From: Chlorogloea sp. CCALA 695
GTDB taxonomy: Bacteria > Cyanobacteriota > Cyanobacteriia > Cyanobacteriales > Chroococcidiopsidaceae
Reading direction: 5' to 3'
Assembly (NCBI RefSeq): GCF_003003885.1
Contig: NZ_PVWN01000003.1
Location: 62,001-126,000, forward strand
DNA: 64,000 nucleotides
Shown here: positions 1 through 12,449 of the stretch, in pieces
Position numbering within the stretch: the stretch's first letter is position 1
How the letters are laid out: every line of letters starts with the position of its first letter
Made by a program: the position numbers and the translations under genes
Notes under the pieces: model-generated
What the model saw: the letters and a program-made list of their open reading frames with translations, nothing else
What the model was told of the DNA's origin: nothing
The model's database searches: none

Positions 1-1276
1 CGATCGCGGCAATTAATCCGACTCCAATACCCTGAAGATAGCCTAGCGTTGCAGTTACGAGGACAATCAGAACGATAGTCGCGTAATCTGAGCGCGAAAA
101 TTTGAACCATCCTCGATAGAGCCATTCATAAAAGAATTCTATTCCCAGTAGCAGTGGAATTCCCACCAAAATTAATTTAGGAATGTACGATAGCAGCGCC
201 GCGCCACCCAATAGCATTGCTAGGCAAATACCAGCGACTAACCCACCTGCAAGGCGACTGCTTGCCCCTAAATTGCGAGAAAGCGTGTTCTCTGCCACAC
301 TGCCAAAGCCGCCGATACCGCCACCTATTCCCGACGCGATCGTGCCAGTTCCAGCAACTTTTAACTCGTGATTAAGATCCAAATCCCGCCCCGCTAGTAA
401 CTCAATTCCGTTCGCATTCAGCAACAGCGCCATAGAATCGACCAGCCAGAGTGCTGCTATACTTGGAATTTGCCTAGTAACAACACTCCAATCCGCTCCA
501 CCCAATGACTGGAATGTACCAAATTTATAAAGACCTCCTGGAGCAATTTTCGCCAGCAGCAACCCTTGCTCCTGTGCCTGTGCAATTGGGGTTCCCGTTA
601 TTGCCAACCCCACATAAAACAGTGCAATCGAACCTATAATAATCCCAGGAATTACCAAAAAATGATCGATGCGGTGGGGAAGCGCAAACATGGCGATCGC
701 AAAAATCAAAGCGGGAACCCACTGAAGCAAGACAATCGGCTGAAACAATGCCGAAATAGTGAAGTGGTGGTGATCGATGCCACTAATGGTATGAAATGCG
801 CCTAAAACTAACAGCGCTCCTGTTCCTGCCAAAAAGCCACCCACAACCGGATAGGGAATAAACCGGACAAATCCACCCAGCTTAAACTGTCCTAAAGCTA
901 GAAAAATGATGCCGCTACCTACTGTGTAGACAATAATCGTGGCTGTTACTGTAAACAGCTTGTCCTCAAACGCAGCGTTGGGCATCTGCTCAAAGATTTG
1001 GCGAGCCACCAGACTCAGAACCGGAATGCTAGGCTCTGAAACCGTCGCCACAATTGGGGAATAGTAACTCAAGCAAGTAGCGATCGCACTCACAACGGTC
1101 GCACTAAATATAATCAGCCCGATCCCGGATGGCGCGGCGCTTGCGAGTTCCCCAGAGAAAATTACTGTCCCGAAGGAGGCGGCGGTAATAACGATTAATA
1201 GTCCCATAGTCGCGCCTGAAATCAGATTCAAGACGAGGGGGTTTGCAGCAGGTTTGGAATGCGCTATTTTAGACAC
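1..1276 (-). CDS. SulP family anion transporter, 3' end outside window
   Basis: Reading the minus strand from a GTG at 1276 gives 425 open codons that run off the left edge. The protein is strongly hydrophobic with about ten membrane segments and SulP features: an N-terminal SEPSIPVLSLVARQ stretch, FIPYPVVGGFLAGTG, and a later GGIGGFGSVAENTLSRNLGA segment. SulP proteins carry sulfate, bicarbonate or other anions across the inner membrane, usually with a C-terminal cytosolic STAS domain, which would lie outside this window. The GTG is chosen because a stop lies two codons upstream; an ATG at 1207 is the alternative. It diverges from the cyclic-nucleotide-binding channel gene at 1487, so the 210 bp between them may hold both promoters. 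The substrate cannot be read from the sequence. Confidence 0.85.
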   Translation of the reverse strand, partial: MSKIAHSKPAANPLVLNLISGATMGLLIVITAASFGTVIFSGELASAAPSGIGLIIFSATVVSAIATCLSYYSPIVATVSEPSIPVLSLVARQIFEQMPNAAFEDKLFTVTATIIVYTVGSGIIFLALGQFKLGGFVRFIPYPVVGGFLAGTGALLVLGAFHTISGIDHHHFTISALFQPIVLLQWVPALIFAIAMFALPHRIDHFLVIPGIIIGSIALFYVGLAITGTPIAQAQEQGLLLAKIAPGGLYKFGTFQSLGGADWSVVTRQIPSIAALWLVDSMALLLNANGIELLAGRDLDLNHELKVAGTGTIASGIGGGIGGFGSVAENTLSRNLGASSRLAGGLVAGICLAMLLGGAALLSYIPKLILVGIPLLLGIEFFYEWLYRGWFKFSRSDYATIVLIVLVTATLGYLQGIGVGLIAAI

Positions 1277-1486: not shown

Positions 1487-3004
1487 ATGCAATTTCAATC
1501 AGCACTCGACTGGGCAAAGGAGCAAGTAGAATATCTTTTTCAATCTTTACTAAACGCCTTTAACATCAGTTTGTTCGCGTTTGGAGGAGAAAAATTTTCC
1601 TTTGGCTCGATTACAGAATTGATTGCTTGGGCGATCGCAGTTTTAGCGATCGCCGGGACGACGAAGCAACTACTAAAACAACGCATTCTGCCTTCCTTTG
1701 GCTTAGAAGTTGGCACGCGCGAATCGCTTTCAGCCATTACAAGCTATATCATTACGATTGTTGGCTTATTAATTGTTTTGCAAACGACGGGAATTAATCT
1801 TAGTTCTTTAGCCGTATTTGCAGGCGCGCTGGGAATCGGCTTCGGGATTGGCTTACAGAATTTAGCCAGTAACTTTATTAGTGGTCTAACTTTACTATTT
1901 GAACAACCAATCAAAGTAGGTGATTATGTTGAAGTCGATAAATTAGCCGGAACCGTTGAAAAAATCGCTATCCGCTCGACAACAATTCGTACTGTTAACG
2001 GCATAGTTGCGATCGTGCCAAATAGCCGTTTTCTCGACAATAATGTAGTCAATTGGAGCTACGGCGATCCTAACTGTCGGATTAATATCAAAGTGCGGGT
2101 AGTAGAGGAAAGCGACTCATTTACCGTGATGGAAGCCTTACTCGCGGCTGCTCGTCAAGAATCTAGAGTTTTATCTTCCCCTTCGCCAGAAGTTTACTTC
2201 AAAGGTGTTAAAAAAGATACTCTAAGATTTGAACTATTGGTTTGGATTCAGAATCCGATAGAAATGGATGCGATTAAAAGTGCGCTGCAATTTTTGGTTG
2301 AAACAGAATTTCGCGATCGCGCTATTGACACCAAATCAGCCCCAACAACAGTCGTATTAGACAATCTGCCGACACTAACAGCATTGCTTCAGTTGCCAAA
2401 TAAGCAAACAACCAATGGTTCGATAGTAGCATCGGGCGATAGCGCAAGCACACCCGGTAACGGGCTTCGCCCTCTTAATTCCACGACTGCATTAGAAAAG
2501 CCGATTGGCGGCTTTTTGTTGCGCGATCTGCTGCGAAAAGTCAGCTATTTTCAGCAATGTAGTGATGTTGAACTGCGACAAGTAATTGAGAAGGGATACC
2601 GCAAAAAATTGGCAAGCAATGAAATTATTTGCCGAGAAAACGATCCGGGCGATTCGTTTTATATTATCTTGTCAGGCGCGGTGGAAGTTTTTGTTGAATC
2701 GATTTCTCAACAAGTTGCGATCCGTACCACTGGGGAGTTTATTGGGGAAATGTCCCTCCTAATGGGCAGTCCGCGCACAGCAACGCTGCGTACAATAGAC
2801 GAAACAATCTTGTTTGTAGTAGATCGCGATAATCTGCAAAGCTTGTTGCAGAAACATCAAGACTTAGCAGACAAAATTGCCGAGGAGTTATCAAAGCGCC
2901 AAGAAACGTTGAAAAGCTTAGGAATTACAATCGGCGCAACAAATATTGAAGAAACGCCGTTTAATCAAATTCGCAAACGAATTAGAGCCATTTTTGGAAT
3001 TTGA
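1487..3004 (+). CDS. MscS-family channel with C-terminal cyclic nucleotide-binding domain (bCNG type)
   Basis: The 505-residue protein has membrane segments at about 45-60, 85-105 and 108-138. The last is a glycine/alanine-rich MscS pore helix followed by the MscS beta domain (GDYVEVDKLAGTVEKIAIRS, about 145-165). A low-complexity linker (305-340) leads to a cyclic nucleotide-binding domain at about 355-480, with a phosphate-binding cassette at 416-434 containing G416, E417, G420, E421, R430 and T431. This is the layout of bacterial cyclic nucleotide-gated MscS channels, in which ligand rather than tension is thought to control opening. It lies 9 bp before a chemosensory operon ending in an adenylate cyclase, which makes cAMP the likely ligand (inference). 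Confidence 0.9.
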   Translation: MQFQSALDWAKEQVEYLFQSLLNAFNISLFAFGGEKFSFGSITELIAWAIAVLAIAGTTKQLLKQRILPSFGLEVGTRESLSAITSYIITIVGLLIVLQTTGINLSSLAVFAGALGIGFGIGLQNLASNFISGLTLLFEQPIKVGDYVEVDKLAGTVEKIAIRSTTIRTVNGIVAIVPNSRFLDNNVVNWSYGDPNCRINIKVRVVEESDSFTVMEALLAAARQESRVLSSPSPEVYFKGVKKDTLRFELLVWIQNPIEMDAIKSALQFLVETEFRDRAIDTKSAPTTVVLDNLPTLTALLQLPNKQTTNGSIVASGDSASTPGNGLRPLNSTTALEKPIGGFLLRDLLRKVSYFQQCSDVELRQVIEKGYRKKLASNEIICRENDPGDSFYIILSGAVEVFVESISQQVAIRTTGEFIGEMSLLMGSPRTATLRTIDETILFVVDRDNLQSLLQKHQDLADKIAEELSKRQETLKSLGITIGATNIEETPFNQIRKRIRAIFGI

Positions 3005-3013
3005 GTTAAATAA

Positions 3014-3493
3014 ATGCTAATGCTACTGTTTCATGTTGGAGACAATCTTTATGCCCTCGATAGTTCTCAAGTCGTTGAAGTGATTGCGATGGTTGCACTA
3101 AGGAAAATTTATCATGTTCCAGAATATGTAGCTGGATTTTTCAACTATCACGGCACTATTGTTCCTGTTATTGACTTATGTAACCTTATTGGGGGCATAA
3201 CTTGCCGTCCTCGTTTCAGCACTCGAATAGTTATGGTCAACTATACGGCAGAAGACGGCAGACAAACGCGTTTGGGACTGATGGCAGAACGAGTCACAGA
3301 AACTTTGACTAGGCCCGATATTGACTCAAAAAACGCGCCTGTCGCCAGCAATGTGTCTTATCTTGGTGAAATGTTTATGGATGAATTAGGCATAATTCAA
3401 CTTATTCATTGGGAGCATCTGATCACAGAAGCCCAACACGCATCACTGTTAGCCGGAGGAAGCATTGAAACTAATGGCGCAAGAAGCAATTGA
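3014..3493 (+). CDS. CheW-like coupling protein (WspB position)
   Basis: A 159-residue single CheW domain. It shows the typical pattern of a short beta strand with LFHVGDNLYALDSSQVVEVI, then YVAGFFNYHGTIVPVIDL and a C-terminal return strand. CheW proteins link a chemoreceptor to the histidine kinase CheA. It starts 9 bp after the channel gene and its end overlaps the start of the following cheR, so it is almost certainly co-transcribed. The second in-frame ATG (3020) is also possible. In position and size it corresponds to WspB of Wsp-type systems. Confidence 0.88.
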   Translation: MLMLLFHVGDNLYALDSSQVVEVIAMVALRKIYHVPEYVAGFFNYHGTIVPVIDLCNLIGGITCRPRFSTRIVMVNYTAEDGRQTRLGLMAERVTETLTRPDIDSKNAPVASNVSYLGEMFMDELGIIQLIHWEHLITEAQHASLLAGGSIETNGARSN

Positions 3494-4730
3494 AGCCTTG
3501 TTGAGGCAGAAAATTGGCTTAGATGCCAATAGTATTGGTTCAAGAACGATCGCCAGAGCCGTTGAACAACGTCAAATTGCTTGTGGCTTACCTGATCGGG
3601 CGGCTTACCTGCATCACTTACAAACTGTGGCTAGAGAACTTGAAGAACTAATCGAAACTGTGGTTGTTCCAGAAACCTGGTTTTTTCGAGACACTGAACC
3701 CTTTGTTTATCTCAATCAATACGTCAGATCCGAGTGGCTAAAAGCAAATTTCAGCATTCTGCGCGTTCTCAGCGTACCTTGTTCAACTGGAGAAGAACCT
3801 TACTCTATCGCCATGACACTGTTAGATTCTGGCTTAAATCCTACCCAGTTTTGCATTGATGCGGTTGATGTTAGTAAACGGGCATTACTGAAGGCAAAAC
3901 AAGGAATCTACAGCCAAAGAGCCTTTCGTGGCGGCGGCGATCGCGCTGGAGCAAAAGGGCGCTACTTTGAGCAAGTCGCTGACAGCTACCAGGTGAAACC
4001 TTTTGTCCGCGACACCGTAAAATTTATTCAGGGAAATCTTTTAAACCCCGGATTTTTAGCTGGAGGCAAATATCAAGTTATTTTCTGCCGCAATCTATTA
4101 ATTTACCTTGATGGTGCTGCCCGAAATCAAGGGATGCAAGCGTTAGATCGAGCCTTAGCACCTGGAGGTCTATTTTTTGTCGGCGCGGCAGAGACAGGGC
4201 AAATTCCCACTAACTATACGCCTATTCGTCATCCCATAGCCTTTGCTTACCGTAAAGGCGATAACGTAAGCTGGAACGGTAACGGGCGTGTCCCCAATGT
4301 TTTGCCAAAAGTTACAAGGGCAATTACTACTCCCGATTCTCCGTTTCAAGCACCGCCAACTATTCGCGCCGTGTTGTCTCCTCCTCCTCCTCAACAACTT
4401 GAAATTGCTAAACAGTTAGCCGACAGAGGACAATTGATCGAGGCAGCAAAGCTAGGTGAATTATACTTGAGCGCAAACCGTACCCATGCTGAGGCTTACG
4501 TTTTGTTGGGCGAAATCTATCAAGGACTCGACCGAATTGAACAAGCAGAACAGTCTTTTAGTAAAGCAATTTATCTCAACCCCCATGCTATCAATGCCTT
4601 AATTGGGTTAGCACTATTAAAAGAGCAACGAGGGGATTTCCTCGGAGCAGAAATCTTAAGACAGCGCGTTCAACGACTACTCAAAATTCAAAACAAGGGT
4701 TCAAATAACGGTTCGAGCGATGTGGAATAG
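3474..4730 (+). CDS. CheR-type receptor methyltransferase with C-terminal TPR (WspC-like)
   Basis: CheR methylates glutamates on chemoreceptors using S-adenosylmethionine. The N-terminal helical domain (about 1-80) precedes the methyltransferase domain with the SAM motif [10 protein letters not shown] and the [11 protein letters not shown] strand. A proline-rich linker then leads to two or three TPR units (about 305-410: [22 protein letters not shown] and following). CheR-TPR fusions are typical of Wsp-type clusters (WspC). The ATG at 3474 is preferred over the one three codons upstream; either way the gene overlaps cheW by about 20 bp. The stop overlaps the next gene by 11 bp, indicating translational coupling. 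Confidence 0.9.
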
Positions 4731-6315
4731 AATTACAAATCGGATTTTGCTTGGCTACTCAATTCCTTTATTGTTTCTACTGGTATTGAGCGCAGTGGTT
4801 TACTCGTCTACCGCAAACGCCTTCAAGTTACAACAAGAAGCGGATCGAACCGAACGAAACATTAGGAGTACTGATGCAATGACGGCTGCAATCAATCGGA
4901 TGATCGGTGGTACGCGAGGTTATCTACTTTTCCCCAACGATCGCTCCCACGTCAGCGTCTATAACGAAGGACACAATGCGTTTGTTGAAAGCGCCAGAAA
5001 TCTGACAGCTATTTCTGACCCAAGAACAAGAGAACTTGTAAATGAACTGTATCAATTGGGTGAAAGTTACGACGAAATTTCCCAAAATGCGATCCAGTTG
5101 GTAAATGAAAAAAGGTTAGCCCAAGCGAGGGTGGAAGTAAATAAACCCAGGATTTCAGCCGTACTCGAACGCCGCAATCGACTCATCAAAGAACTAGCTA
5201 CTCAATTCAATCAAAGCAATCAAACTGTAAGGAACTCTCAGCAGTTTTTACTGACAGTAATTATTATTGGGACAGGGTTAACGATTCTAGCGACCATTTT
5301 AGCGGGGTTGTGGACAACTTTGCCGCTCAAAAGACAACTCCCCAAAGTAGTGAACGCGGCAATAGCGATCGCCGATGGCGACCTTACTCAAGAAATTGAT
5401 GTTACAAGAGATGGCACGGAAGTAGAGCGACTCTTAGTAGCGTTTAAAAACATGACTAAAAATTTGAATGTGTTAATCGCTCAAGCGCAAAGGTCAGGAA
5501 TTCAAATTGGGACATCAACAACTCAAATTGCCGCCGCCGGAAGACAGCTAGAAGCAACGGTAAACGAGCAAGTTGCGTCCATAAACGAAGTAAATGCAAC
5601 CTCTAGGCAAATTGCATCAACGGCTGGCGACTTAGTAAAGGGGATGGAAGATGTGACCAGGACAGCCCAGGCAACAACTCAATCCGCAGCCAATAGCCAA
5701 ATAAATTTAGAGAAAATTCAAGGGGCGATGCAGAATTTAGGGCTGGCGACTAACTCAATTTCTTTAAAATTAAAGATTATGGATGAAAAAGCAAATAATA
5801 TCAATAACGTTGTTGCCACTATTACCAAAGTTGCCGACCAAACAAATTTACTATCTCTCAACGCCGCGATCGAAGCAGAAAAAGCCGGGGAGTACGGCGC
5901 AGGCTTTGCGGTAGTAGCAAGAGAAATTCGCCGTCTAGCAGACCAATCAGCAGTGGCGACTTTAGAAATAGAGCAAATGGTTAAAGAGATGCAATCGTCG
6001 GTATCTACTGGCGTGATGGAGGTGGATAAATTTAGCCGCGAAGTCAGTCAATATGTCGAGGATGTTGGCGAGATTAGCACTCAAATCGGTGGTTTTATTA
6101 AAGATGTCCAGTCTCTAGCGCCGCAGTTTGGAATTGTCTGCCAAAGTATGGACGAACAATATCGCGGCGCAGAACAAATTAGTACGGCGATTTCTCAATT
6201 AAGTGAAGCTTCTCATCAAACAGTCCAATCTTTGCAAGAAACAAATAATGCCCTGACGCAGCTAGATGATGCGACTCAAGGTTTACAGCGAGAAATTTCC
6301 CAGTTTAAGGTCTAA
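4720..6315 (+). CDS. methyl-accepting chemotaxis protein (WspA-like)
   Basis: A 531-residue membrane chemoreceptor. Residues about 7-30 form the first membrane segment, 31-175 a helical periplasmic domain of CHASE3/four-helix type, and 178-203 the second membrane segment. A HAMP domain (about 204-258) and a long cytoplasmic coiled coil follow. The hairpin tip is conserved ([20 protein letters not shown], then [16 protein letters not shown]). No C-terminal NWETF-type CheR/CheB tether is visible, so the TPR of CheR may contribute to docking (inference). It is the only receptor in the operon and therefore its likely input. The signal is unknown. Confidence 0.92.
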
Positions 6316-6321
6316 ATCATC

Positions 6322-7026
6322 ATGGACATCACTATTACGCCCCATCAAAGCAATAATTGCTGGAACAGCATCGGTGTATATGGCGATCGCTCCTGCAAAA
6401 AGTTAGAAACCGTAATTCATTGCCGCAACTGTCCGGTATATTCAACGGCGGGACGCAGTTTGTTAGAGCGTGAAATTCCAGTAGACTACTTAAACGAATG
6501 GACGGCGACCATAGCTTCGCCTCAAACCCAATCGCCTTTGGCAATTGGCAACCAAGCTGCTGTAAGAATTGGACGAGCAACAGACACTTTTAGTGCGATC
6601 GTTTTTCGCTTGAGCAATGAATTATTTGCTCTGCCTGTAGGCGTATTGCAAGAAGTTACTCATCCTAGCGCGATTCATACCTTGCCTCACCGCAGCAATG
6701 ACCTGTTTTTGGGGCTAGTGAATATTCGCGGTGAAATCTTGCTTTGTGCGTCTTTGAGTCATCTTCTAGGGCTGGAAACTATAGAGCCACCATCTAGCGA
6801 CAGAGATTGTCGGATGCTTGTTGTTGGCAAAAATGGTAAATGGGTGTTTCCGGTTGATGAAGTACATCGAATCTACCGCTTCCACCTCAACGAATTTAAA
6901 GCTACGCCTGTCGTCATTTCTAGATCGCAGGAAACGTACAGCCAAGGAGTGATTGACTGGCATGATAAAAAGGTGAATTACCTAAATGCCGAACTATTAT
7001 TAGATATGCTTGCTCGCCGCATTTAG
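6322..7026 (+). CDS. CheW-domain protein with cysteine-bearing N-terminal extension (WspD-like)
   Basis: 234 residues in two parts. The N-terminal 80 residues contain CWNSIGVYGDRSCKKLE and HCRNCPVYSTAGRSLLE, a cysteine-rich leader of the kind seen in WspD. A CheW domain follows from about residue 92 (FRLSNELFALPVGVLQEVTH to the C-terminus). It begins 6 bp after the receptor gene. Having two different CheW proteins in one operon is a Wsp hallmark, where WspB and WspD both couple receptor and kinase. Whether the four cysteines bind metal or are redox-active is not known. Confidence 0.88.
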   Translation: MDITITPHQSNNCWNSIGVYGDRSCKKLETVIHCRNCPVYSTAGRSLLEREIPVDYLNEWTATIASPQTQSPLAIGNQAAVRIGRATDTFSAIVFRLSNELFALPVGVLQEVTHPSAIHTLPHRSNDLFLGLVNIRGEILLCASLSHLLGLETIEPPSSDRDCRMLVVGKNGKWVFPVDEVHRIYRFHLNEFKATPVVISRSQETYSQGVIDWHDKKVNYLNAELLLDMLARRI

Positions 7027-7045
7027 AGCAGGTTTTGGAGAAAAT

Positions 7046-9898
7046 ATGGGCGATTACTCAATGCTGGATTTGTTTCGTCAAGAAGTGGCAATTCAAGTCG
7101 CAAACTTAAAGCACTTGTCGAATTTAAAACAGCAGCCCCTTGAAGTGAGCGAATTAGAAACGGCGTTGCAGTCTTTAAGGGCGATCGCCGGATCTGCCCA
7201 GCTTGTCGAACTTGAGGCGATCGCAAATTTAGCGGCAGCAATGACGGGCTTGCTAGATGACGGCGGTTCTTCTACGCTGCCATTGACCCAAAAGCAAATC
7301 GATTCCTTACTACACGCCCTGGATCTCCTCGTCGGTATCAGCCACGCGGAAGACTTAGAAGGCTGGTTAGCAGCGCACTCTGAGGACTTGATAAGTACGC
7401 AGGCGGCGATAGATACTGCCCAGCAAGCGCCTTTAACAACTGATATCAGGGTGGAAGCAAGTTTAATTAACTCCTCTCCAGTGGAGGCAATTACAGATAG
7501 CCCTATAGCCGTTGCGTCTTCATCCCTTCTTGATAGTTCCATGCTTGACTTGTTTCGTTTAGAAGTCGAGGCACAGGTGACGACTTTAACTGACGGTCTA
7601 CTGGCGTTAGAAACTAATCCTAACTCTGCTCAAGAATTAGAAGCGTTGATGCGCGCGGCTCATTCTATCAAAGGAGCCGCTCGAATTGTCGGACTAGATG
7701 CAGCAGTGGGGTTAGCTCACGTCATGGAAGATTGTTTTGTTGCCGCCCAGAACCAAACAATTACTTTAACAGGCGACCAAATTGACGTACTGTTGCGCGG
7801 AGTCGATTTACTTCAAAGCTTCAGTTCATTGAGCGATTTACATGACTCGACTAAGGAAGCGGAAATTGGCTCGATTCAAGCAACGATTTCTGCCATCCAA
7901 ACTCCAGGAGTCGCTTTAGTTACACAGGCTACTCAGTCGTCGACTAAACCTACACCAAATTTTGACAGCATCAATTCTGCGCCCATAGCTGAAACTGAAC
8001 CGATTTCCCTTACCGTCCCGTCGCCAGTGCCAATGGCTGAAACTGAACCGATTTCCCTTACCGTCCCGTCGCCAGTAATGGAGACATCAGTTTTATTGGT
8101 TCACGAGGCTGACGAAATTGATGTAGCAATAGAACCAATTACTACTCAAGATCGGGTAGTGCGGGTAAATGCGGAGAACCTGAATCGGATGATGGGACTA
8201 GCCGGAGAGTCAATGATTGAAGCAAATTGGCTAAATCCGTTTATTGATTCTCTGATGCTGCTAAAATCCCGTCAGTTAGAGCTTGCTAAGTGTTTAGAGA
8301 AATTACAACTAGAGGCGATTTCTAGCCGTTCCCTTAATCCAGACGAGATGACGCTATTAGAGATTGCTCGACGCAAAGAGCGAGAATGTCGTGACTTAAC
8401 AGGCGATCGCGTTACGCAACTAGAAGGATTTGTTCAGCGTACTGCAAACTTATCCGATCGCCTTTATCGAGAAGTAATATCTTCTCATATGCGCCCGTTT
8501 GCCGACGGCGTACAGAGTTTTAAGCGGATGGTTCGCGATATTGCCCGCAAATTAAATAAGCAAGTCAAGCTAGATATTATCGGCGAATTAACGGCAGTTG
8601 ATCGCGATATTCTCAAAAAACTAGAAGCTCCCCTTACCCATATTTTGCGAAACGCTGTCGATCACGGTATAGAATTACCAGAAGTTCGACTGGCATCTGG
8701 AAAGCCACCAATGGGAACTATTCGCCTAGAAGCTGTCCATCGCGGCGGTATGTTAGCGATCGTTGTTGCAGACGATGGCAAAGGCATTACTCCAGAAACG
8801 CTACGCCAGCAAGTAATTGACAAAAAGCTGGTAACGGCAGAAGTCGCAGCGAAACTAACTGATAACGAATTGATGGAGTTTTTGTTTTTGCCGGGATTTT
8901 CGCTCTCTAAGCAGGTGAGTGAACTTTCTGGTCGAGGGGTGGGGTTAGATATTGCTAAAAGTATGGCTCAGGAAGTCGGAGGGACAGTAAGGGCAGCTTC
9001 TCAGCCTGGACTTGGAACCAGTTTTCATTTCCAATTGCCTTTGACGCTCTCGGTCGTGCGGACTTTGTTAGTCGAGATTTCTGGCGAACCTTACGCATTT
9101 CCGTTAGCGCGAATTGACCAGATTGTCAATGTTGAAAAGTCAGAAATCGCCGCAATTGAAACTCGTCAATACTTTACGACTAACCAAAAGAACATTGGTT
9201 TGATTCCTGCTTACCAGGTGCTTAACTTGCCGCCGCCCACTGTAATCCCCGACCCGCTTTGGGTTGTGATTATTAGCGATCCCTCGGATACCTATGGAAT
9301 CGTCGTCGATCGCTGTTTGGGAGAACAGGAGCTAGTTGTGCGTCCTCTAGATGCTCGTTTGGGCAAAGTGCAAGATATCAGCGCCGCCGCACTGATGGGC
9401 GATGGATCGCTAGTTTTGATCGTGGATGTGCCTGACCTGGTACGATCTGTAAACAATCTTCTTAATACTTCTCGGTTAGCCAAAGTTGGTACAGAAGCAA
9501 TTGTTCCAGGTTTTGCAACCCAGCGCCAAGTCAAACGAGTGCTAGTGGTCGATGATTCGATTACGGTGCGGGAAGTAGAACGCAAACTGCTACAAAACCG
9601 AGGCTATACAGTTGAAGTTGCTGTAGATGGCATGGAGGGCTGGAATGCGGTTCGTTCTAAGCCTTACGATTTAGTAATCAGCGATATTGATATGCCCCGA
9701 ATGAATGGAATTGAACTAATTAAGCAAATTAAAAGCCATCCGCGTCTAAATTCAGTTCCGGTAATTGTCGTGTCTTACCGCGATCGCGAAGAAGACAGGA
9801 TTCAAGGCTTAGAAGCTGGCGCAGATTATTATTTAACTAAGAGTAGCTTTCATGACGACACCTTAATCGAGGCTGTAGTGGATTTGATTGGTGAGTAA
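7046..9898 (+). CDS. CheA-type hybrid histidine kinase with C-terminal receiver (WspE-like)
   Basis: Start ATG 7046 is preceded by GGAG at suitable spacing; an ATG 36 bp upstream lies inside the preceding gene and lacks such a site. Of 950 residues, 1-100 form a degenerate HPt domain (Arg45 where the phospho-His should be). Residues 165-275 form an intact HPt domain with AAHSIKGAARIVGL (His206). A repeat-containing linker and dimerisation helices precede the ATPase domain (HILRNAVDHG, DDGKGITPETL, GRGVGLDIAKSMAQE). A CheW-like regulatory domain and a receiver (about 829-945, acceptor Asp in ISDIDMPRMNG) end the protein. It autophosphorylates and should pass phosphate to its own receiver, CheB and the receiver-cyclase. 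Confidence 0.93.
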   Translation: MGDYSMLDLFRQEVAIQVANLKHLSNLKQQPLEVSELETALQSLRAIAGSAQLVELEAIANLAAAMTGLLDDGGSSTLPLTQKQIDSLLHALDLLVGISHAEDLEGWLAAHSEDLISTQAAIDTAQQAPLTTDIRVEASLINSSPVEAITDSPIAVASSSLLDSSMLDLFRLEVEAQVTTLTDGLLALETNPNSAQELEALMRAAHSIKGAARIVGLDAAVGLAHVMEDCFVAAQNQTITLTGDQIDVLLRGVDLLQSFSSLSDLHDSTKEAEIGSIQATISAIQTPGVALVTQATQSSTKPTPNFDSINSAPIAETEPISLTVPSPVPMAETEPISLTVPSPVMETSVLLVHEADEIDVAIEPITTQDRVVRVNAENLNRMMGLAGESMIEANWLNPFIDSLMLLKSRQLELAKCLEKLQLEAISSRSLNPDEMTLLEIARRKERECRDLTGDRVTQLEGFVQRTANLSDRLYREVISSHMRPFADGVQSFKRMVRDIARKLNKQVKLDIIGELTAVDRDILKKLEAPLTHILRNAVDHGIELPEVRLASGKPPMGTIRLEAVHRGGMLAIVVADDGKGITPETLRQQVIDKKLVTAEVAAKLTDNELMEFLFLPGFSLSKQVSELSGRGVGLDIAKSMAQEVGGTVRAASQPGLGTSFHFQLPLTLSVVRTLLVEISGEPYAFPLARIDQIVNVEKSEIAAIETRQYFTTNQKNIGLIPAYQVLNLPPPTVIPDPLWVVIISDPSDTYGIVVDRCLGEQELVVRPLDARLGKVQDISAAALMGDGSLVLIVDVPDLVRSVNNLLNTSRLAKVGTEAIVPGFATQRQVKRVLVVDDSITVREVERKLLQNRGYTVEVAVDGMEGWNAVRSKPYDLVISDIDMPRMNGIELIKQIKSHPRLNSVPVIVVSYRDREEDRIQGLEAGADYYLTKSSFHDDTLIEAVVDLIGE
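7988..8076 (+). repeat. 48-bp-period tandem duplication inside cheA
   Basis: A 41-bp block at 7988-8028 is repeated exactly at 8036-8076. It encodes two copies of AETEPISLTVPSPV in the linker after the second HPt domain. The period is a multiple of three, so the frame is kept. This is consistent with a recent slippage duplication in a disordered region. Confidence 0.9.
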
Positions 9899-9904
9899 TA
9901 CAAA

Positions 9905-10927
9905 ATGAAAATCGCTCTTGTCAACGATATGCCAATCGCCGTCGAAGCCCTGCGACGAGTGCTGTTGACTATCCCAGAATATCAAGTTGCTTGGATTGCG
10001 ACGGGCGGCGTTGAAGCGGTTGCTAAATGCGCCAAAGATACCCCAGACTTGATTTTGATGGATTTGATTATGCCTGGAATGGATGGGGTTGAAGCAACTC
10101 GTCAGATTATGAAACAGTCTCCTTGTGCGATTGTAATTGTAACTGCTAGTGTCGGGCAAAATGCCGCCAAAGTGTTTGAAGCAATGAGTTATGGGGCGTT
10201 AGACGCTGTTGATACGCCGATTTTAGGCAGCCAAGGAAAACAAGACCCTTCCCAAACTGCCCTGCTGAAAAAAATTGCCACGATTGGTAAACTAATCGGT
10301 AAATCTCCTCCTTCTCACCTCAATTTCACCTTAAACAAACCTCAAACAAACTTCACTCTACCCCCCCTAATTGCGATCGGCTCGTCTACAGGTGGGCCAA
10401 AAGCCCTAGCTACTATTCTCTCTCGTTTGCCAGCAGATTTTGGAGCGGCGATCGCTATAATTCAACACATTGATGCTCAGTTTGCTGTGGGCATGATCGA
10501 CTGGCTGAACCAGCTTACACCCTTAACTATAAAAAAAGCATCCGCAGGTGATCGCTTAGAAAAAGGAATTGTTACAGTTGCTTGCACAAACGACCACCTC
10601 TCTCTGCAATCCAACCATACGCTCAATTACACTAAAGACCCAATTGACTATCCTTACCGCCCCTCAATTGATGTATTCTTCAAAAGTATCGCTCAATACT
10701 GGACGCACAAAGGAACTGCCGTACTGCTTACGGGTATGGGGCGAGATGGCGCAGAAGGACTCAAACTGCTCCGTAGTCAAGGCTGGCATACGATCGCCCA
10801 AGACAAAGCAAGCTGCATTGTTTACGGAATGCCTAGAGCCGCCGTGGAGCTAAATGCTGCCGTTGAGGTGCTTAATCCAGAGGCGATCGCAACTTCGCTA
10901 ATTTATCGCTCGGTAGTCAACCGTTAA
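9905..10927 (+). CDS. CheB-type receptor methylesterase (WspF-like)
   Basis: CheB removes methyl groups from receptor glutamates when its receiver is phosphorylated. Residues 1-120 are a receiver with acceptor Asp in [13 protein letters not shown], though the acidic start of strand 1 reads VNDMP. Residues about 155-340 are the methylesterase domain with catalytic Ser in [11 protein letters not shown], His in IIQHID and Asp in [10 protein letters not shown]. The total of 340 residues is normal for the family. It starts 6 bp after cheA and is followed 10 bp later by the receiver-cyclase. With CheR it should set receptor sensitivity. Confidence 0.92.
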
Positions 10928-10937
10928 TTATCTCCCA

Positions 10938-12449
10938 ATGGACGATTTTATCAGCGTTCTGCTCATCGACGATCAATCTATTATTGGTGAAGCCGTGCGG
11001 CGGATGCTGGCTGCGGAAAATGATATTGTTTTTCACTACTGCAATGATCCAACTCAAGCCCTTAAAGTCGCTAAAGAGTTTCATCCGACGGTGATATTGC
11101 AAGACTTGGTAATGCCGCAGATGGATGGGTTATTACTGGTACGATTTTTGCGATCGCGCGATGCACCAACTTATCAGATTCCGTTAATCGTGCTGTCAAG
11201 CAAAGAGGAACCAATCATCAAAGCTCAAGCCTTTGAACTGGGCGCGAATGACTACCTAGTAAAGCTGCCTGATCGCGTTGAATTAATCGCCCGCATCCGT
11301 TACCACTCCAGCGCCTACACAAACCTACTCAAGCGCCAAGAAGCTGAAGCGCTGCTACAAGACGAAAACTTGCGACAGGCGTTGTACATTCAGCAGGTAG
11401 ACAAATTGACTCATGCTGCTAATGCTTTTGAACAAGACGCTTTCACGCCAGAAAGCCTAAGCGATGTTGCTGCGCGCGAGGACGAACTAGGACAACTGGC
11501 ACGGGTTTTTACTCATATGGTCAAAACGGTTAAAGCTCGTGAAAAAGAGTTGCTAGATGCCAATGCTCAAAACCAGGATTTGAAAGATTCCTACGCGCGA
11601 TTTTTTCCTTCGGAATATCTGCAATTTCTCCGCAAAGATAGCGTTACCGAAGTCAAACTCGGCGATTATGTCAGCAAAACAATGGCAGTTATGTTTAGCG
11701 ATATTCGCTCCTTTACAACCCTTTCCGAAAGCATGACTCCTCAAGAAAACTTTGACTTCGTCAATGCCTACCTAAAACGAGTCAGCCCAGAGATTCGTAA
11801 TCATTACGGCATCATTGTCAAATTTCTGGGAGACGGCATGATGGCGGTGTTTCCTGAAGGCGCTGATGATGCCATTAAAGCAGGCATTGCCAAGCAAAAA
11901 CGAGTACAAGAATACAATGCGGAGCGCACTGGCAGAGGTAAATTGCCTGTCCAAGTGGGCATTGGGATTCATGTCGGACACATGATGTTGGGAATGGTGG
12001 GAGAAGATAGCCGGATTCAAGGAGATGCTTATTCTGATAACGTCAATTTGACCGCACGGTTAGAAGGTTTAACCAAGTTTTATGGGGTTTCAATGCTAAT
12101 TTCCGGTCAAACCCTAGAGCATCTGAGCAATCCCGCTCAATATCAAATTCGCTTTTTAGATCGGGCGATTGTCAAAGGGCGAAATGAAGCGATCGCAGTT
12201 TACGAAGTCTTAGATGCTGAAGTAGACGAAATCAGCCACCTCAAACAGCAGACTCAAACCGATTTTGCTCAAGGAATAAGCTATTACCACAATCTCAAAC
12301 TCACCGATGCCAAAGCTTGTTTTGAACAAGTGTTAAGCACTAATTCCGCCGATAAAACAGCGAAACTTTACCTAGAGCGAGTCGAACGCTTGCTAGAACA
12401 TGGTGTACCAGAAAACTGGAATGAAGCTTGGGTATTCAGCGAAAAATGA
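10938..12449 (+). CDS. response regulator-adenylate cyclase (WspR-type receiver, class III cyclase output)
   Basis: 503 residues. The receiver (1-125) has acceptor Asp56 in VILQDLVMPQMDG and a GANDYLVKLPD ending that closely resembles WspR as I recall it. A HAMP-like/coiled linker (about 170-215) leads to a class III nucleotide cyclase domain (about 240-400). Metal-binding Asp255 (FSDIRSF) and Asp299 (FLGDG), adenine-selecting Lys295 and Asp367, Asn370 and Arg374 are all visible, so ATP is the predicted substrate and cAMP the product. A C-terminal segment (about 425-490) looks like one TPR-type hairpin. WspR normally ends in GGDEF and makes c-di-GMP, so the output domain differs here. It is the last gene of the operon. 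Confidence 0.9.
   Translation: MDDFISVLLIDDQSIIGEAVRRMLAAENDIVFHYCNDPTQALKVAKEFHPTVILQDLVMPQMDGLLLVRFLRSRDAPTYQIPLIVLSSKEEPIIKAQAFELGANDYLVKLPDRVELIARIRYHSSAYTNLLKRQEAEALLQDENLRQALYIQQVDKLTHAANAFEQDAFTPESLSDVAAREDELGQLARVFTHMVKTVKAREKELLDANAQNQDLKDSYARFFPSEYLQFLRKDSVTEVKLGDYVSKTMAVMFSDIRSFTTLSESMTPQENFDFVNAYLKRVSPEIRNHYGIIVKFLGDGMMAVFPEGADDAIKAGIAKQKRVQEYNAERTGRGKLPVQVGIGIHVGHMMLGMVGEDSRIQGDAYSDNVNLTARLEGLTKFYGVSMLISGQTLEHLSNPAQYQIRFLDRAIVKGRNEAIAVYEVLDAEVDEISHLKQQTQTDFAQGISYYHNLKLTDAKACFEQVLSTNSADKTAKLYLERVERLLEHGVPENWNEAWVFSEK

Follow-up and report, generated by a model that had tools for sequence, protein, structure and literature searches.

What does a Wsp-type chemosensory operon control when its last gene encodes, in place of a GGDEF protein, a class III nucleotide cyclase? 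This question is raised by a locus of the cyanobacterium Chlorogloea sp. CCALA 695, found in a stretch of 64,000 nucleotides (contig NZ_PVWN01000003.1, positions 62,001 to 126,000; assembly GCF_003003885.1), hereafter called the window, to which all coordinates refer unless preceded by the number of another locus (L); genomes are numbered with G. From sequence comparison, it is quite probable that this operon encodes a Wsp-type array with cyclic AMP (cAMP) output, and that a channel bearing a cyclic-nucleotide-binding domain (CNBD), together probably with a SulP transporter, responds to it in the window and its close relatives.

Eight same-strand open reading frames (ORFs) fill positions 1487 to 12449 of the forward strand, the longest ORFs being joined at junctions of 9, –29, –11, 6, –17, 6 and 10 bases. 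Pfam analysis gave the gene order MscS channel with CNBD, CheW, CheR-TPR, methyl-accepting chemotaxis protein (MCP), CheW, CheA-REC, CheB and receiver-class III cyclase. The features are as follows:

1–1276, reverse strand: SulP anion transporter with STAS and CNBD, 5′ part (ORF; Pfam Sulfate_transp, STAS, cNMP_binding)
1277–1486, no strand: divergent intergenic stretch of 210 bases, expected site of the operon promoter (ORF limits, promoter scan)
1487–3004, forward: MscS-type channel with C-terminal CNBD (Pfam, PDB relatives, motif)
3014–3493, forward: CheW, WspB position (Pfam)
3465–4730, forward: CheR-TPR methyltransferase, WspC position (Pfam CheR, TPR)
4720–6315, forward: methyl-accepting receptor, WspA position (Pfam CHASE3-HAMP-MCPsignal; two hydrophobic stretches)
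6322–7026, forward: CheW with four-cysteine leader, WspD position (Pfam; leader pattern)
7010–9898, forward: CheA-REC hybrid kinase, WspE position (Pfam Hpt-HATPase-CheW-REC)
9905–10927, forward: CheB methylesterase, WspF position (Pfam REC-CheB)
10938–12449, forward: WspR-type receiver, HAMP/coiled coil, putative adenylate-type class III cyclase and helical C-terminal tail, WspR position (Pfam REC-HAMP-Guanylate_cyc, alignments, AlphaFold)
10956–11300, forward: WspR-type receiver domain, residues 7–121 (Pfam, identity to WspR)
11397–11531, forward: HAMP-like linker, residues 154–198 (sub-cut-off Pfam match, AlphaFold)
11676–12194, forward: class III cyclase domain, residues 247–419 (Pfam, alignments to cyclases)

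The initial annotation had described the tight run from the first CheW to the receiver-cyclase, and this observation was confirmed by the ORFs and Pfam; its component list stands, while the range it gave opens with the MscS-CNBD gene, which was left unnamed there, as was the SulP neighbour. The interpretation that it attached to the run was partly supported, as detailed below. The arrangement is not a product of chance, since other cyanobacterial contigs carry this gene set too. Its assignment as a Wsp-type operon was upheld by the gene set (MCP, two CheWs, CheR-TPR, CheA-REC, CheB and WspR-type receiver), by the CheA, which shared 43–48% identity with its counterparts in 11 GGDEF-type Wsp operons, and by the receiver family; it is not a Wsp system based on cyclic di-GMP (c-di-GMP), its output being devoid of GGDEF. 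In the CheA, the first Hpt domain lacks the phosphorylatable histidine, the second carries H218, and the aspartate of the REC domain is residue 892.

The likeness of the receiver to WspR, also proposed initially, was substantiated by identities of 62.1% with the P. aeruginosa and 63.8% with the P. syringae WspR receivers, versus 34–35% for three other receivers of the genome, and by a search of solved structures in which WspR was the best match (E 2e-47) and PleD reached 1.1e-17. A second WspR in the genome was considered and, judged by receiver similarity, rejected, the next-best receiver match showing 35% identity (E 4.9e-14). The receiver residues D11, D12, D56, S88 and K109 are present, as are the cyclase residues D255, K295, D299, D363, N370 and R374, and both groups were kept in 23/23 proteins aligned with both parts among the REC-HAMP-cyclases of the window type (CYCa); a 24th CYCa protein (L023) has no receiver start in its open frame. 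The cyclase residues comprise those of class III adenylate cyclases, that is, two metal-binding aspartates, a Lys/Asp purine pair and the transition-state asparagine and arginine, and the output domain is accordingly classed, by its residues, as a putative adenylate-type class III cyclase. The metal aspartates and Lys295 had been correctly recognized from the outset, whereas the aspartate of the adenine pair is D363 and not Asp367, because D363, seven residues before N370, faces the glycine of the guanylyl cyclase Cya2 and the threonine of CyaB. A long helix and a HAMP-like segment (18.4 bits, Pfam cut-off 25) connect the receiver to the cyclase. The AlphaFold monomer, built on a 23-row alignment, had a pLDDT of 86.7 and a pTM of 0.56 and retrieved WspR first from the PDB (TM 0.26), followed by class III cyclases, the overlay with WspR probably involving the receiver alone. 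The cyclase of the window was the single class III cyclase match in the genome, which also yielded 14 CNBD matches and 15 GGDEF matches.

In the proposed mechanism, the CHASE3 receptor and the two CheWs, with adaptation performed by CheR-TPR and CheB, would control CheA-REC, which would transfer phosphate to D56 of the WspR-type receiver. Phosphorylated D56 would rearrange the receiver dimer and, via the long helix and the HAMP-like linker, may activate the class III cyclase dimer, whose product would be cAMP. In the window and loci closely related to it, this cAMP would then bind the CNBD of the co-operonic MscS channel, and probably also that of the divergent SulP, and the array would thereby control ion flow across the membrane. 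The activation step is modelled on what is generally known of response regulators and class III cyclases. The surface-sensing role of the Pseudomonas system should not be transferred to this array.

The conservation of the operon was assessed by a whole-protein search of GTDB-species contigs, which returned 78 loci. Twenty of them (L022–L041) match the window protein over full or nearly full length with 69–95% identity and are filed as cyanobacterial except for one contig. In 19 of the 20 (all but L025), a CheB gene was located no more than 2.6 kb from the REC-cyclase gene; it is the immediate neighbour of the cyclase gene, save in L036, where a receptor gene separates the two. Such a second receptor gene between cheB and the cyclase gene was observed at L036:7547–9988 and L118:7494–9938. 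The whole set of seven genes was seen in nine of the 20; L033 and L041 are devoid of CheR and L040 of the first CheW with the DNA in view, the others are cut by contig or stretch ends, and L023 is deleted. The L022 contig, assigned to a Tatlockia metagenome-assembled genome (MAG), carries CheB and REC-cyclase genes 93–95% like those of the window and is probably a misbinned cyanobacterial contig.

The channel and the transporter were followed through these loci and through the order of G300 (Phormidium tanganyikae; read as Leptolyngbyales), in which CYCa occurs in 14 of 42 genomes at 17 places; 16 of these were fetched, five of them repeating named loci, and the 17th lies at a contig edge. The CYCa loci of this order, the named loci and the window split into two clades in a quick tree without bootstrap. 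Among the nine loci of the window's clade whose upstream DNA was in view, eight carry CNBD transport genes beside the operon: a co-directional MscS-CNBD gene together with a divergent SulP-CNBD gene in five (window, L262, L263, L264 and L029/L266), MscS only in two (L267 and L038/L275, the latter cut before a SulP gene could show), and SulP only in one (L273). The SulP gene of the window, which encodes 737 amino acids and runs past the left edge (L260:5064–7277), thus has divergent SulP-CNBD counterparts in L262, L263, L264, L266/L029 and L273. The CNBD of the window channel spans about 2603–2857, with the nucleotide-binding cassette FIGEMSLLMGSPRTAT, and the MscS core followed by a CNBD with pocket Glu and Arg corresponds to a channel of the bCNG type. 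The window REC-cyclase groups with those of the G300 order (L261, L262; SH-aLRT 81), though its own genome shares an order with the Anabaena-like G072, which hints at transfer between orders. In the divergent intergenic stretch, no match to the sigma-70 consensus was found between 1277 and 1486, the 13.5 kb scanned containing 9 matches versus a mean of 22 in shuffles.

Several observations weigh against this circuit or narrow its reach. WspR is also regulated by oligomerization without phosphate, according to the part of that study considered here (PMC2270323). The REC-HAMP-cyclase gene at L025:9971–11509 has no recognized che gene within 10 kb on either side, and no CheA was found in the fetched DNA of L126. 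In L023, a near relative from a Gloeocapsa MAG, the C-terminal part of SulP abuts the C-terminal part of CheA and in-frame stops occur, one of them in the receiver frame (L023:7284–11512), most of the operon being apparently gone by deletion or misassembly. L261, within the window's clade, showed neither channel, transporter, first CheW nor CheR upstream. In the other CYCa clade, the MscS gene was present in 1/15 loci with upstream DNA in view (L271), nine of them (the named ones except L039, refetched as L270) offering about 1–2 kb before the first che gene, too short for a whole divergent SulP gene. A channel search of ten CYCa genomes gave a CNBD-reaching match only in G300 and G213; five genomes had no match at E 1e-30 and three matched over the MscS part only (G072 and G301 look like one genome). 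Finally, the channel cassette has the sequence PRTAT, and cGMP-dependent kinases figure among the best PDB relatives of the channel CNBD, so that the sequence does not fix the ligand. The channel is not an obligate target, because few genomes or loci of the other CYCa clade have an MscS-CNBD. As a general target of the CYCa cyclase it was rejected, given the CNBD-reaching match in 2/10 genomes and its absence from 14/15 other-clade loci.

These limits bear most directly on the possibility that cAMP is made as proposed and acts mainly via CRP-type transcription factors or other CNBD proteins, the MscS and SulP genes being passengers. The 14 CNBD matches of the genome offer such alternative receivers of the signal, and the other-clade CYCa operons mostly do without the channel. 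On the other hand, the channel and/or transporter have been kept beside the operon throughout nearly all the window-clade loci mentioned above, with identities of 62–72% for SulP and 64–69% for MscS, and the GE and R of the nucleotide pocket are kept in the MscS and SulP genes of that clade that were checked (L271 being outside this check). We therefore regard the passenger explanation as rather unlikely, although it is the strongest competitor, and the channel and transporter as likely cAMP targets, by sequence, in the window's clade and not as a rule for the whole family.

A wider association between MscS-CNBD channels and class III cyclases would be only suggestive. The window MscS is joined first by those of L029 and L038 and next by the MscS near the L042–L044 cyclases (quick tree, no bootstrap); the MscS-CNBD genes near cyclases in L042–L044, L059, L060, L066 and L070 were found through the cyclase search, their linkage being partly due to selection. 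Among fetched MscS-CNBD loci, a cyclase was located within 5 kb in 6/39 (7/39 anywhere in the stretch) versus 0/19 MscS loci without CNBD, with L168 and L169 as near copies among the six, several stretches ending at contig ends, and control L199 (1/20) set aside for having a CNBD.

The nucleotide itself was also questioned, as the cyclase could make cyclic GMP (cGMP), or both nucleotides, and the CNBDs could read cGMP. The PRTAT cassette and the high PDB matches to cGMP-dependent kinases would agree with this, and in Desulfobacterales bacterium HSG16 the last gene of a Wsp operon encodes a receiver-cyclase (L240:11987–13459) with the Glu/Gly pair of guanylyl cyclases such as Cya2. Nevertheless, the adenine-type pair K295 and D363 was invariant in all the CYCa proteins aligned with both parts, and the PDB relatives of the channel CNBD include PKA and SthK besides PKG, making a cGMP output improbable.

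A separate receiver-only scan (E 1e-22) was conducted over 292 cyanobacterial genomes, the window's own included. WspR-type receivers were found at 19 places in 18 genomes, carrying six CYCa, three cyclases of a different type (CYCb), four SpoIIE/PP2C phosphatases, five histidine kinases, one hybrid kinase and no GGDEF; CheB was located within 2.6 kb in 19/19 and CheA in the fetched DNA in 15/19. The association of WspR-like REC-cyclases with Wsp genes, for which a genome survey had been suggested initially, is thus recurrent. The idea of an ordinary c-di-GMP Wsp system, with the true WspR elsewhere in the genome and the cyclase as a neighbour with its own role, is very improbable: it could invoke the 15 GGDEF matches and the two GGDEF proteins modelled as WspR homologues elsewhere in the Phormidesmis genome (PMC4971617, in the sections considered), whereas the sole WspR-type receiver found here sits on the cyclase (next best 35%) and none of the 19 cyanobacterial receivers carries GGDEF.

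In the phylum of the Thiotrichaceae genome G292 (read as Pseudomonadota), the receiver was matched in 70/398 genomes at E 1e-22, and among the matches listed (30 loci) the outputs were, by motif, 22 GGDEF and eight histidine kinases, the fetched surroundings of three of these eight having no che genes. At E 1e-38, the phylum of the Desulfobacterales genome had matches in 9/198 genomes (five GGDEF, three PP2C-type and one cyclase), and that of the Anaerolineales genome G293 in 0/201; as the phyla of G000 and G292 were scanned at the looser threshold of 1e-22, this absence says little. Output types were assigned by Pfam for L120, L127, L128, L131, L240 and L254 and by motif or similarity for the rest. 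In the fetched surroundings, the same MCP, CheW, CheR, CheW, CheA and CheB set stands beside GGDEF, PP2C, kinase and cyclase outputs; therefore, the WspR-type receiver appears from these comparisons to be a swappable plug at the end of the Wsp operon, staying with its kinase while the output changes.

Some of these operons presented further features. Receiver-SpoIIE genes adjoin DUF6272-like and STAS genes, a partner-switch set, at L120:7620–9987, L122:9927–13663 and L124:9927–14444; the set was scanned in L120 only, where STAS is under the Pfam cut-off. L122 also encodes a small HAMP protein that resembles the HAMP linker of the window cyclase at 62% over about 55 residues. CheA was not found in the fetched DNA of L122, L124 and L125. 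The four-cysteine leader of the WspD-type CheW (6322–7026 in the window) was recognized by pattern in 39/40 counterparts of all output types, the GGDEF-type Wsp loci L242–L248 and L256–L259 included, the 40th having an insertion; the leader could serve as a metal or Fe-S site.

The origin of the cyclase output had first been explained as a replacement of GGDEF, and this did not withstand the phylogenies, since the receiver, CheA, CheB and concatenated trees all place PP2C nearest. The receiver phylogeny that had been proposed initially set the GGDEF receivers apart from CYCa. In the receiver tree, which omits L023 (truncated frame) and L220, L225 and L227 (same places as L249, L250 and L251), CYCa forms one group (93/77) inside the cyanobacterial PP2C receiver series (98/94, 97/87), with GGDEF receivers elsewhere. 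The CheA tree covers 34/62 loci plus the window, the others either being devoid of CheA or, as with L024, L026, L027, L031, L038, L123, L258 and L259, bearing CheA but lost to the hit filter; it joins CYCa, itself weakly held (77/0), to the PP2C locus L120 (100/99). CheB sets CYCa apart (99/96) with PP2C loci as the nearest, and the concatenated tree (51 rows, CheA present in 35) holds CYCa (99/97) within the PP2C series (96/93, 99/94), all GGDEF rows lying beyond one branch (100/99). The approximately unbiased (AU) test, whose two groups were chosen after the tree was seen, rejected CYCa and GGDEF on one side of a branch (p 4.6e-45) and did not reject cyanobacterial PP2C as its own clade (p 0.12). 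PP2C is therefore the likely but unproven immediate predecessor of the CYCa output, judging from these trees, because a separate PP2C clade stays allowed.

The cyclase half appears to come from a local family: its nearest relatives in a quick tree of the cyclase domain, without bootstrap, are the Fischerella and Westiellopsis cyclases L042–L044 (L042 consisting of histidine kinase, dCache, HAMP and cyclase), followed by the shorter L045–L057, which match from the HAMP region on. The CYCb and Desulfobacterales cyclases are of other types and sit on other receiver lineages, and because of these differences three captures of a cyclase by the WspR-type receiver are the simplest count; CYCb is split in the concatenated tree.

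Compared with the Pseudomonas Wsp system (WspA–F and WspR), the window shares the component set, CheR-TPR, the Cys-leader CheW, CheA-REC, CheB and the receiver family (62–64%), and differs in three ways: a class III cyclase, attached by a HAMP-like linker, takes the place of GGDEF; the receptor gene lies between those of CheR and the second CheW; and the CNBD channel gene heads the operon. In the Pil-Chp/CyaB system of P. aeruginosa, a chemosensory kinase raises cAMP via a class III cyclase that is a separate protein and not the response regulator of the array. Channels of the bCNG type, reportedly the subject of work by Caldwell in 2010 and Malcolm in 2012, are said to join an MscS fold to a C-terminal CNBD; the window channel differs in that its operon also encodes a chemosensory array and the cyclase of that array.

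The operon outline is already in print: as far as the consulted sections of the genome paper go, Phormidesmis priestleyi BC1401 presents a cyclic-nucleotide-binding protein gene, wspB, C, A, D, E, F and a class 3 adenylate cyclase at the WspR position, and the Wsp system was also noted in L. boryana PCC 6306 and Geitlerinema PCC 7407 (PMC4971617). In those sections, the authors called the Wsp response regulators and effectors unclear, sought WspR among GGDEF proteins elsewhere without reporting a WspR-type receiver on the cyclase, and described the first gene just as that of a cyclic nucleotide binding protein (PMC4971617); the first gene of the window operon encodes an MscS-CNBD channel. Pathways of the alternative cellular functions (ACF) class with CheR-TPR likewise use multidomain response regulators, with mononucleotidyl cyclase among the listed outputs, and the portion of that account considered does not analyse to which family the receivers belong, whether outputs are exchanged or whether CNBD proteins are linked (PMC3447774). 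No further account of this arrangement was recognized in the open-access literature, to which the search was confined, subscription papers lying outside it. What is added here is the identity of the receiver on the cyclase, the output-swap series and the linkage to channel and transporter.

More tentatively, at slightly under an even chance, a broader picture may be drawn, in which the WspR receiver is a conserved plug through which one array type drives four or more output types in different lineages (GGDEF, histidine kinase, a SpoIIE phosphatase accompanied by partner-switch genes, and class III cyclases acquired in probably three separate captures, one of them guanylate-type) and the circuit of the window's clade is self-contained, its array setting the cAMP that gates the MscS channel and SulP and sensing ion or osmotic balance rather than movement or matrix. 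The proposed Wsp-type array with cAMP output would make a testable circuit out of what was a brief mention in a genome paper: the array, cAMP, the channel and the transporter would come together at a single locus, which holds the genome's only class III cyclase match. Moreover, the natural series of outputs exchanged on one receiver would be useful for learning how a receiver drives unrelated enzymes and for building chimeric regulators.

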